Source: Cyclonatronum proteinivorum
GTDB taxonomy: Bacteria > Bacteroidota > Rhodothermia > Balneolales > Cyclonatronaceae
DNA: 64,000 nt
Reading direction: 5' to 3'
Assembly (NCBI RefSeq): GCF_003353065.1
Contig: NZ_CP027806.1
Coordinates: forward strand, 186,001-250,000
The notes under the pieces are model-generated. The model made no database searches. It had not been told where the DNA came from and worked only from the letters and a program-made list of their open reading frames with translations. The stretch's first letter is position 1. Each line of letters starts with the position of its first letter. Below are positions 19,441 through 23,609 of the stretch, one piece after another. The translations under genes were made by a program, and so were the position numbers.

Positions 19441-20589
19441 TTAGAAGGTCGCTTGCTGACCGCTAAAGAGGCTGCGCCGCTCGTTGTCAGCGTCTGAACG
19501 CAGGGAAAGCCCAACAGCCAGCACATCCCCCGGCCGTAAGCCGCTTATAATTTCTGTATTCACGCCATCGCTGAGGCCTGTTTCAACCGCAACCACTTCA
19601 AGCTGCCCGTCGCGCAGCACGTAAGCCCGCGGCTGCCCTTCATCGAAATGCGCGGGTGTCGGCGGACGAATACCATCCGGCAGCCGGGCGCGAAGGGCGG
19701 TATTGCGCACCCGAACGACGTCATGCTGTTCAGCAGTAATCACAGAGACTTCCGTTGTCATGCCCGGTTTCAGCAGCAGATCTTCATTGCTGACTTCGAT
19801 CAGGGTTTGGTAATGAACCACATTGTCTTCGATAACAGGCGCGTTGCGCACCTGAATCACTTCACCCGAAAAGGTGCGCTCCCGATAGGCGTCAACGCGG
19901 AAATTAACCCGCTGTCCTTCCCGAACCTGCCCTATATCGGCTTCTGAAACATTGGCGTAGATGTGCATTACCCGCAGATCGGAAGCCAGCTGAAACAGTT
20001 CGGGGGCATTCAGGCTTGCGGCTACGGTCTGCCCGACATCCACATTGCGGGAAATCACGATTCCGTCAGCAGGGGCGGTTATGGTACAGCGGTCAAGTTC
20101 ACGTTGTGCGCGTTCGAGGGCATGGCGTCTTACCCGCACCTGTGCTTCGGCCTGTCTCAGGGTAGCCGAAGCCTGATCCACATCTGACGGGGAAACAAAC
20201 TGCCGCTCCCGCAGCTCCTGAACCCGCTGCCACTGCATACGGGCGAGCTCCAGCCCCGCTTCAGCACTGGCAAGCTCTGCCCTTGCCGAGCTTAATTCCG
20301 CTTCAAAAGTCGAGGGGTCAATTCTGGCGAGTACCTGCCCTTTTTGGACAACCGTGTTGAAATCGACGGTGATTTCTTCAATAATACCCGAAACCTGACT
20401 GCCCACAGTTACGCGCTGTACGGGATGTATGGCCCCAAAGGCCACAACGCGCCTGGAAACATCCCCGGTTTCGACTTCAACGGTTGCCAAGGGCGGCAGC
20501 GTCCCGCTCCCTTCAGCGCCCGGCTGCCAGATGAACCAGGCTACCGCAGCAAGTACAACGGGGATCAAAATGTAAGCTGTTCGTTTCAT
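19441..20589 (-). CDS. MacA/HlyD-type periplasmic adaptor subunit
   Basis: 382 residues: N-terminal membrane anchor (AYILIPVVLAAVAWFIW), barrel/lipoyl half VVAFGAIHPVQRVTVGSQVSGIIEEITVDFNTVVQKGQVLARIDPSTFEAEL, a coiled-coil hairpin (LSSARAELASAEAGLELARMQWQRVQELRERQFVSPSDVDQASATLRQAEAQ), the second lipoyl half CTITAPADGIVISRNVDVGQTVAAS, and beta-barrel and membrane-proximal domains. It is the adaptor of the MacB-like ATPase/permease encoded 2-4 kb downstream. No TolC-like factor is visible nearby. Confidence 0.92.
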   Translation of the reverse strand: MKRTAYILIPVVLAAVAWFIWQPGAEGSGTLPPLATVEVETGDVSRRVVAFGAIHPVQRVTVGSQVSGIIEEITVDFNTVVQKGQVLARIDPSTFEAELSSARAELASAEAGLELARMQWQRVQELRERQFVSPSDVDQASATLRQAEAQVRVRRHALERAQRELDRCTITAPADGIVISRNVDVGQTVAASLNAPELFQLASDLRVMHIYANVSEADIGQVREGQRVNFRVDAYRERTFSGEVIQVRNAPVIEDNVVHYQTLIEVSNEDLLLKPGMTTEVSVITAEQHDVVRVRNTALRARLPDGIRPPTPAHFDEGQPRAYVLRDGQLEVVAVETGLSDGVNTEIISGLRPGDVLAVGLSLRSDADNERRSLFSGQQATF

Positions 20590-20766: not shown

Positions 20767-21855
20767 ATGAAGTTCGACACACCCGCCTGCCATATCCTTC
20801 TTATTGAGTCTGATATGGCAATCCGTATGCTTATTGAAGATTTCATTGATGAGTTTTTTCTGAACTACACCTTTCATACCGTTTCCGGCTTTGAAGAGGC
20901 TACGACTTTTCTTGAAAACACAACACAGCCGGATGTCATCATTTGTAACAGCAGTCTTTCCGGTGAAAACTCGACACAACTGATCCGGCAATTACTGGCT
21001 ATATGCCCCGATATTCCGCTGATCATGCTGAGCAGCTATACCAACCGGCAGGAAGTCGTTGAATGGGTCAAAATGGGTGTGTCTGATTACCTTTTGATCG
21101 ACGACCTGAGCCCAAGCCTGCTCCACAAGTCGGTCATGTTTAGCATTGAACGCAGGCATAGCATTCAGGCACTGAAACAATCCGAGCGCCGCTATCGCGA
21201 TCTTTTTGAGTACAGCCCTTTGCCCATGTGGGTTATCGACCTGGAAACAAGCTGCATTTTAGATGTAAATGAGGCCGCAGTTAATACATACGGCTACAGT
21301 CGCGAAGATTTTCAACAACTCGATATCCGTGATATTTATCCCGGCATAACATCCGCTGAGCTTCGATCATGGCTAAAAAATGAAACAAGTCAGGCAGTGA
21401 AGGATCACGGTGTTTTTGAACATTACAGCCGGGAAGGAAATGTATTACAAATGGAAATAAAGAGCCGGGTGATGGAGTATGAGGGAAGACGGGCACGGCT
21501 GATCATTGCACATGATGTAACTAAACTGAAGTCCTATATTGAGGCGATTGAAGACCAAAATGAGCGTTTTCGCGAAATCGGCTGGCTTCAGTCCCACATT
21601 GTCCGTGCGCCCCTTGCCCGTATGCTGGGTTTGATTAACTATTATAATGATAATATGGCTGCGCAGTCATCCCAAAAGAAAGAGGCGACAAAACCGGCTG
21701 CCGGTTTGAATTCGGAACCGGATCAGGGATTTGATTCAGAAATGAGCACGGAAGAAATTTTGCAGTATATTGCCGCAGCCGCCGCTGAACTGGATCAGAA
21801 CGTCCGCGATGTGGTTTCAAAGACAACCCGAACTGAACCTGACTCACCTGAATGA
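20767..21855 (+). CDS. Degenerate receiver-PAS protein with a kinase-like H-box but no ATPase domain
   Basis: 362 residues. Receiver-like domain 1-125 (HILLIESDMAIRMLIEDF; IMLSSYTN; GVSDYLLID), in which the phosphoacceptor position is Asn61 (VIICNSSLSG), one Mg-binding acidic is Ser15 and the conserved Lys is Ile111: a pseudo-receiver. PAS follows at ~140-260 (FEYSPLPMWVIDLETSCILDVNEAAVNTYGYSREDF). Then SHIVRAPLARMLGLINYYN (His277), the Bacteroidota-type H-box helix, but only ~85 residues remain and no HATPase motifs. The stop overlaps the NhaC start (ATGA), so the two are coupled. Probably a signalling adaptor acting on a partner kinase or on the antiporter. Confidence 0.85.
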   Translation: MKFDTPACHILLIESDMAIRMLIEDFIDEFFLNYTFHTVSGFEEATTFLENTTQPDVIICNSSLSGENSTQLIRQLLAICPDIPLIMLSSYTNRQEVVEWVKMGVSDYLLIDDLSPSLLHKSVMFSIERRHSIQALKQSERRYRDLFEYSPLPMWVIDLETSCILDVNEAAVNTYGYSREDFQQLDIRDIYPGITSAELRSWLKNETSQAVKDHGVFEHYSREGNVLQMEIKSRVMEYEGRRARLIIAHDVTKLKSYIEAIEDQNERFREIGWLQSHIVRAPLARMLGLINYYNDNMAAQSSQKKEATKPAAGLNSEPDQGFDSEMSTEEILQYIAAAAAELDQNVRDVVSKTTRTEPDSPE

Positions 21856-23609
21856 AAAAGTTTACCATCACTTTTTTTCTGTCTGCGCTGATTCTCGCAG
21901 TTATCGGCTGGGCCGACCTTTCCGGCCTGGGACTGGCATTTACAGAAGGCACTGATCCCGGAGAGGACGCCGGATTTGGCGGATTCGGTACCTGGGTGAG
22001 TTTGCTGCCCCCGCTTGTAGCCATCGCGCTGGCGCTCATCACCCGCGAGGTCGTGCTGTCGCTTTTTGCCGGGGTCTGGATTGGGGCGTTGTTTATCGCA
22101 GGCTTCAATCCCTTCACAGGTACCGCTGATTCGTTTGGGTTCCTGATCAGCGCAATGTCTGATGAGTATCACGTCGCCATCATTATGTTCAGCCTGATGC
22201 TGGGCGGGATGGTAGGCCTGATGAGCCGGGGCGGCGGAACCAAGGGCGTGGTTACCGTGCTGGCAAAGCTGGCCAAAAACCGCACACAGGGACAGTTCAT
22301 CACCTGGATTTCGGCTTTATTTCTGTTTTTTGACGACTATGCCAACAGTCTCATCCGCGGGAGCGCGATGCGCCCGATGACCGACCGGCTGAATATCTCC
22401 CGGGAAAAGCTGGCCTATATCGTGGATTCTACGGCAGCCCCATTGGCAGTAAGCGCGGTCATTACAACCTGGATTGGCTTCGAAATCACGCAGATTTCAA
22501 ACTCTCTTTCCACGCTGGCCGCACAAACCGAAGATGCGGCACTTGCTGCACAACTGCAGGCCGGCGCAGATAATGCCTTCATGATTTTTCTGCACTCTGT
22601 GCCTTATCTGTTTTATCCGCTGCTCGCACTCGGATTTGTACTGATGATCATACTGATGAAGCGCGATTTCGGACCGATGCTCGATGCTGAGCGCCGGGCG
22701 TATTCAGGCGGCGGGGTTCTTCGGCCCGGTGCCGTTCCGGCTTCTGATGTAAACCTGGAAAGCCTGCAACCGCTCGACGGCAAGCCGCTGCGCTGGTACA
22801 ATGCTGCAATTCCGGTACTTACCGTCGTGATCGTTGCCATTTACGGACTTTACAGCACCGGGGCGAGCGGACTCGAAGCGGGCGAGCGAAGCCTGACCAA
22901 CATCATCGGTGGAGCCGATCCCTTTGCAGCACTGGTCTGGGCTTCCTTTGCAGGATGCTTTGTCGCCATGGTGCTTGTTGTAACACAGCGCATTCTCAGC
23001 GTTGGTGAAGCCCTTGAGTCCTTTGTAGGCGGAATGCAATCCATGATGATGGCCATCATTATCCTTGTATTGGCATGGGGACTCGGCGAAGTAACGCAGG
23101 CAGTTGGTACCGGTTCCTACCTGGCAAGCCTGCTTCAGGATACGCTTCCGCTGGTGCTGCTGCCTGGTTTGGTATTCTTTATTGCGGCGGTCACTGCTTT
23201 TTCAACGGGGACTTCCTGGGGTACGATGGCGATTCTGTTCCCGGTTGTGATCCCGCTCGCAGTCGTAATGGGAGCCGGTGTGGGCTTTGCGGGTGGTGAA
23301 AATTACGGGATTTTGCTGGGCGCGATCAGCTCAGTTATGGCCGGCGCCGTATTTGGCGATCACTGTTCTCCGATTTCGGACACAACGGTAATCAGTTCCA
23401 TGTCATCTGCCTGCGACCTGATTGATCACGTACGCACGCAGCTGCCCTATGCGCTGGTTGTAGCCGTTGTAGCACTCCTTGTTGGCGAAATCCCCGCCGC
23501 TTTTGGCGTCTCCCCGGTTTACGGCCTGATTGTTGGCTTCGTACTGCTTTATATTATTCTGAGAGTTTTTGGGAAGAACCCGGAGGAAGTTAAAGCGTTA
23601 GCGGCTTGA
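21852..23609 (+). CDS. NhaC-family Na+/H+ antiporter
   Basis: 585 residues with about 11-12 hydrophobic segments. Recognised by TWVSLLPPLVAIALALITREVVLSLFAGVWIGALF, the conserved FFDDYANSLIRGSAMRPMTDRLNISREKLAYIVDSTAAPLA, TAFSTGTSWGTMAILFPVVIPLA and GAVFGDHCSPISDTTVISSMSSACDLIDHVRTQLPYA. It exchanges cytoplasmic Na+ for external H+ in the inner membrane, supporting pH and salt homeostasis. Its translation is coupled to the pseudo-receiver/PAS protein upstream, an unusual partner. Confidence 0.94.
   Translation: MKKFTITFFLSALILAVIGWADLSGLGLAFTEGTDPGEDAGFGGFGTWVSLLPPLVAIALALITREVVLSLFAGVWIGALFIAGFNPFTGTADSFGFLISAMSDEYHVAIIMFSLMLGGMVGLMSRGGGTKGVVTVLAKLAKNRTQGQFITWISALFLFFDDYANSLIRGSAMRPMTDRLNISREKLAYIVDSTAAPLAVSAVITTWIGFEITQISNSLSTLAAQTEDAALAAQLQAGADNAFMIFLHSVPYLFYPLLALGFVLMIILMKRDFGPMLDAERRAYSGGGVLRPGAVPASDVNLESLQPLDGKPLRWYNAAIPVLTVVIVAIYGLYSTGASGLEAGERSLTNIIGGADPFAALVWASFAGCFVAMVLVVTQRILSVGEALESFVGGMQSMMMAIIILVLAWGLGEVTQAVGTGSYLASLLQDTLPLVLLPGLVFFIAAVTAFSTGTSWGTMAILFPVVIPLAVVMGAGVGFAGGENYGILLGAISSVMAGAVFGDHCSPISDTTVISSMSSACDLIDHVRTQLPYALVVAVVALLVGEIPAAFGVSPVYGLIVGFVLLYIILRVFGKNPEEVKALAA

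Follow-up and report, generated by a model that had tools for sequence, protein, structure and literature searches.

A receiver-PAS-DHp protein with a degenerate receiver, possibly a repurposed phosphorelay intermediate, encoded beside a Na+/H+ antiporter-family gene in Cyclonatronum proteinivorum

What does a protein built from two-component signalling parts do when its gene runs directly into that of a membrane transporter? This arrangement was found in the stretch of 64,000 nucleotides of Cyclonatronum proteinivorum analysed here (the window; contig NZ_CP027806.1, positions 186,001 to 250,000). ORF1 (20767..21855, + strand) encodes a pseudo-receiver/PAS/DHp protein of 362 aa without a HATPase domain. 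ORF2 (21852..23609, + strand) encodes a Na+/H+ antiporter-family membrane transporter of 585 aa. The stop of ORF1 overlaps the start of ORF2 in the four bases ATGA (21852-21855, + strand), as the original prediction had described. That prediction took ORF1 for a protein that can neither be phosphorylated in the normal way nor autophosphorylate, made in fixed ratio with NhaC as a direct sensor or regulator of ion transport.

The receiver-like domain of ORF1 (residues 10-109; 20794..21093, + strand) matched Pfam Response_reg with an E value of 9.7e-10. Asn61 (20947-20949, + strand) replaced the phospho-acceptor Asp, Ile111 (21097-21099, + strand), just past the end of the domain, replaced the Lys, and Ser15 (20809-20811, + strand) was found in the acid pocket, so that the Asp, acidic pair and Lys of a phosphorylatable receiver (PF00072) were not complete at any of the three sites. 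These residues and His277 were all exactly where they had been predicted, and the domain fits the definition of a pseudo-receiver (PMC12632262). The bacterial pseudo-receivers of that review resemble ORF1 in matching PF00072 without the phospho-acceptor Asp and Lys; 2.0% of the sampled receivers lacked the Asp, with Glu as the common replacement and not Asn. ORF1 differs from this pattern in carrying Asn and in its fusion to PAS and DHp domains.

The PAS domain (residues 137-260; 21175..21546, + strand) matched TIGR00229 sensory_box (E 2.6e-18) and PF13426 (E 9.6e-10), the Pfam PAS_9 match spanning residues 153-253. It was followed by a HisKA-type DHp helical hairpin (residues 262-353; 21550..21825, + strand) with the motif QSHIVRAPLAR, which contains the phospho-acceptor-type His277 (21595-21597, + strand), and a second helix, ELDQNVRDVVSKT. 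Single-sequence AlphaFold, at low confidence (mean pLDDT 50), predicted helices at residues 251-300 and 328-353. Pfam gave no HATPase match in ORF1 and the C-terminus lay 85 residues past His277, bearing out the claim of an H-box helix with no ATPase behind it. No DNA-binding or other output domain was found in ORF1 by Pfam, and no transmembrane-grade hydropathy was seen. Against solved structures, ORF1 matched receivers or receiver-containing proteins only, and a scan of the genome collection gave only two PAS-level matches in other phyla. The low GC content of the ORF1 gene (0.46 versus 0.55) was considered as a sign of recent transfer and rejected; sensor GC was below antiporter GC in the other species too, and the kinase gene of G004, where the sensor homologue and the antiporter are unlinked, had a similar GC content.

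The C-terminal segment of ORF1 itself gave no Pfam match, but HisKA was found by Pfam in 6 of 7 aligned homologues of this segment (best E 1.4e-9). A profile of the DHp segment recovered nine strong copies at E <= 4e-17 from the same genome, plus seven weak ones with E values of 2e-7 to 4e-4. Each of the seven weak matches was followed shortly downstream by a HATPase match in the same frame, which indicates that the ORF1-type DHp is homologous to HisKA. None of the nine strong copies was followed by an ATPase, and in every one the domain ended 0-19 residues from the C-terminus. Judged by these matches, the C-terminus of ORF1 is a HisKA-type DHp of a subfamily that stands without an ATPase among the relatives compared. 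The absence of an ATPase from ORF1 is thus the family norm; none of the relatives compared carries one behind its DHp. Compared with a HisKA histidine kinase, ORF1 had the DHp helix pair and the His, and HATPase_c was absent. A HisKA kinase needs an acid at His+1, and phosphatase activity needs Thr or Asn at His+4 (PMC3510030); ORF1 has Ile and Ala at these positions, respectively, neither the kinase nor the phosphatase residue. Across the family, Glu occurred at His+1 in 3 of the 25 loci listed, and His+4 was Ala or Ser.

Eight further proteins of this genome end in an ATPase-less DHp (contig positions 779795, 1840076, 1211617, 2691461, 4031999, 2407815, 1718316 and 371621, from the DHp profile search), most of them without a directly adjoining kinase gene. 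By eye, the N-terminal start of one of the eight, L096, resembles that of a two-component regulator propeller protein.

ORF1 belongs to a family of stand-alone receiver-PAS-DHp proteins, with a full-length alignment (A2) and a profile match of E 3e-141, ORF1 itself being one of the 11 rows of the profile. Full-length searches listed, among their matches, 25 such loci in the order and phylum, ORF1 included; the counts that follow are of loci listed by the searches and not of all species, and domains in adjoining genes were called with small purpose-built profiles, not curated ones. Directly upstream lay a single receiver gene at 18 of the 25 loci; a same-strand HATPase gene was found upstream at 18, and at 9 the next gene downstream encoded a receiver. 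At least one such same-strand receiver or HATPase neighbour was present at 22 of the 25, frequently with overlapping genes. This pattern of neighbours points to a split phosphorelay, and the ancestral ORF1-type protein was probably a phosphorelay intermediate. An equivalent of His277 was found at all 25 loci. The receiver Asp and Lys were kept at 23. The two loci that have lost them are those of the window species and of its nearest sister, G005, so on this comparison the degenerate receiver is not ancestral. ORF1 has the REC-PAS-QSH-DHp architecture without an ATPase; the kinase and receiver neighbours of the cassette family are absent from its locus. Since the family lives beside separate kinases and receivers, phosphotransfer in trans would be expected for the ORF1 DHp, and the statement that ORF1 can neither be phosphorylated nor autophosphorylate overlooked His277.

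Across the phylum a cassette recurs in which a kinase, a single receiver of ~143 aa and an ATPase-less receiver-PAS-DHp protein are often joined by a further single receiver of ~130 aa (L150, L153-L155, L158-L160, L163, L164 and L166), commonly with overlapping genes. No description of the ATPase-less DHp cassette was found in the openly licensed literature. A second subfamily was seen in one family of the order (L143, L145-L148), in which receiver proteins starting near IMTIDDTVENLELLEEML have the same DHp end; in most cases a kinase gene flanks them on one side and a VDDD-type receiver on the other.

The REC-PAS-DHp proteins of these HK-REC-[REC-PAS-DHp]-REC cassettes in the same phylum resemble ORF1 in domain order and length (~330-360 aa), and they also have QSHxVRAPLAR in a C-terminal DHp with no ATPase. 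Unlike them, ORF1 has no kinase or receiver neighbours, has lost the receiver Asp and Lys, and is followed by an antiporter gene. Spo0B and ChpT have a HisKA-like DHp whose phospho-acceptor-type His is used without autokinase activity, as that of ORF1 may be. Behind this DHp, Spo0B and ChpT carry a degenerate ATPase-like domain. ORF1 has no ATPase-like C-terminal domain and has a receiver and a PAS domain fused in front. What points to ORF1 as a Spo0B/ChpT-like phosphotransfer protein is the DHp His and the cassette context of its family.

By sequence, ORF2 is a member of the PF03553 Na_H_antiporter family (E 3e-50). It scored 40 bits against the NhaC equivalog TIGR00931 (cut-off 370) and 156 bits against Tet(35) (cut-off 750); with scores this far under both cut-offs, its substrate can only be called putative. 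The label nhaC therefore held at the level of the family and not of the equivalog. ORF2 gave no match to solved structures.

The pairing was followed in six genomes of the genus, that of the window species (G000) included. A sensor gene lay directly before the antiporter gene in three of the six, namely the window genome, G005 and G001. These three share the order of divergent HlyD-type gene, sensor and antiporter; in the window the first of these (19441..20589, - strand) is an RND/HlyD-type periplasmic adaptor by eye, and it and the antiporter gene are the neighbours of ORF1, whose locus includes neither a cognate kinase nor a cognate receiver. In the other three genomes the antiporter orthologue had no adjoining sensor, and G004 carried its sensor homologue within a full relay cassette on a contig other than the antiporter's. 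Across the family and order, 9 of 12 close antiporter orthologues had no sensor neighbour, 2 of these lying near contig ends and hence being uncertain. The gene pair is thus conserved in half of the genus sample, and antiporter orthologues mostly occur without a sensor gene beside them. Its junction varied from a 4-nt overlap in the window to a 5-nt gap in G005 and a 32-nt overlap in G001, and so lends no support to the proposed fixed ratio. The substitutions were not conserved either: the linked sensor of G001, with only 34% identity to that of G000, keeps its receiver intact (a separate receiver gene lies farther upstream of the pair), and that of G005 has Asn and Thr at the Asp and Lys positions, respectively. 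The original prediction was to be refuted by orthologues with intact receivers and full kinase domains unlinked to the antiporter gene. Half of this was observed: homologues with intact receivers and no antiporter link were the rule, and none had a kinase domain of its own. The sensor tree is compatible both with one recruitment event for the three linked sensors and with repeated ones (AU p 0.36).

G005 is the nearest relative of the window species by antiporter sequence. Between the two, identity was 93% for the antiporter, 87% for HlyD and 85-93% for neighbouring genes, versus 59% for the sensor. Within the sensor it was 49%, 65% and 69% for the REC, PAS and DHp domains, respectively, so the receiver drifts fastest of the ORF1 domains. 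An attempt at dN/dS found the synonymous sites of the sensor saturated between these two species, and relaxed constraint would be another way to account for its rapid divergence.

Such divergence, together with the loss of neighbours and of receiver residues, could mean that ORF1 is left over from a phosphorelay cassette and is being lost, with the antiporter as a chance neighbour. We consider this improbable: neither species has an interrupted reading frame, the receiver is less well conserved than PAS and DHp, and G001, though deeply diverged, still has the pair. In another reading, the DHp of ORF1 would still function in phosphotransfer (or as a phosphate sink) for receivers encoded at other loci, and its position beside the antiporter would reflect shared expression only. 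Between the window and G005 the receiver drifts, but His277 and the whole QSHIVRAPLAR motif are identical, and two receivers of the cassette-output type remain in the genome as possible partners (contig positions 785345-785737 and 766082-766474), the one at 785345 being clustered with a kinase and another DHp-only protein. However, the locus holds no cognate kinase or receiver, and with the receiver Asp gone there is no evident phosphate route to His277; we regard this reading as possible but on the unlikely side.

The original prediction's own idea, that the PAS domain and pseudo-receiver bind and gate the transporter without phosphate chemistry as a direct sensor subunit, has precedents. The cytoplasmic PAS domain of DcuS contacts the transporter DctA (PMC3892338), and post-translational inhibition of the KdpFABC pump has been described for KdpD, including short forms that lack the kinase part (PMC11018627). 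In both, a two-component-type sensor is tied to a transporter through a regulatory contact, as proposed for ORF1; DcuS and KdpD are full kinases or have a kinase domain of their own, and the link of ORF1 to the antiporter is known from genome position alone. A direct subunit would fit the overlap or near contact of the two genes in three species whose sensors differ greatly, and the lack of an output domain and of membrane-grade hydropathy in ORF1. Against it, most orthologous antiporters have no partner, and the linked copy of G001, with its intact receiver and upstream receiver gene, still resembles a relay part. Residues specific to the linked antiporters of the three genomes occupied 4 positions versus 0-5 for control triples, so no sensor-matching or docking signature above the controls was found and no residues clearly specific to linked antiporters emerged. 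Regulation of transport is a plausible reading of the locus, weakened by these same two facts, the unpaired orthologues and the lack of clear specific residues; a direct sensor subunit appears unlikely.

We lean towards ORF1 being a phosphorelay intermediate repurposed beside the antiporter, which would have kept its PAS and DHp domains and lost its receiver chemistry. An origin in the split-phosphorelay intermediate family is very probable on the sequence comparisons above. The ancestral relay may have run from kinase to receiver, from there to the DHp histidine and finally to an output receiver. The kinase and receiver neighbours would then have been lost, the ancestor of ORF1 would have come to be read with the antiporter gene, and receiver chemistry would have been lost in two species with PAS and DHp retained. 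In such a protein the PAS domain would most likely respond to a cytosolic signal by altering the shape of an adaptor dimerised through its DHp, while the dead receiver provides a docking module; the output would pass either by contact to the co-translated antiporter or via His277 to receivers encoded elsewhere. That ORF1 regulates the antiporter in some form is a tentative proposal that we tend to doubt slightly, and direct physical contact between the two is rather unlikely. A bolder form, which we think has little chance of being right, would make ORF1 a phosphate-independent, dedicated PAS sensor subunit of an antiporter-family transporter that docks through the dead receiver, with G001, G005 and the window as successive stages of the conversion.

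If ORF1 does control the antiporter, it would illustrate how a relay component that has lost its chemistry can take on the regulation of a transporter, and one genus may preserve steps of that change. Independent of the antiporter, the cassette of kinase, receiver, receiver-PAS-DHp protein and receiver points to a split phosphorelay that is widespread and in which the DHp protein never carries an ATPase.
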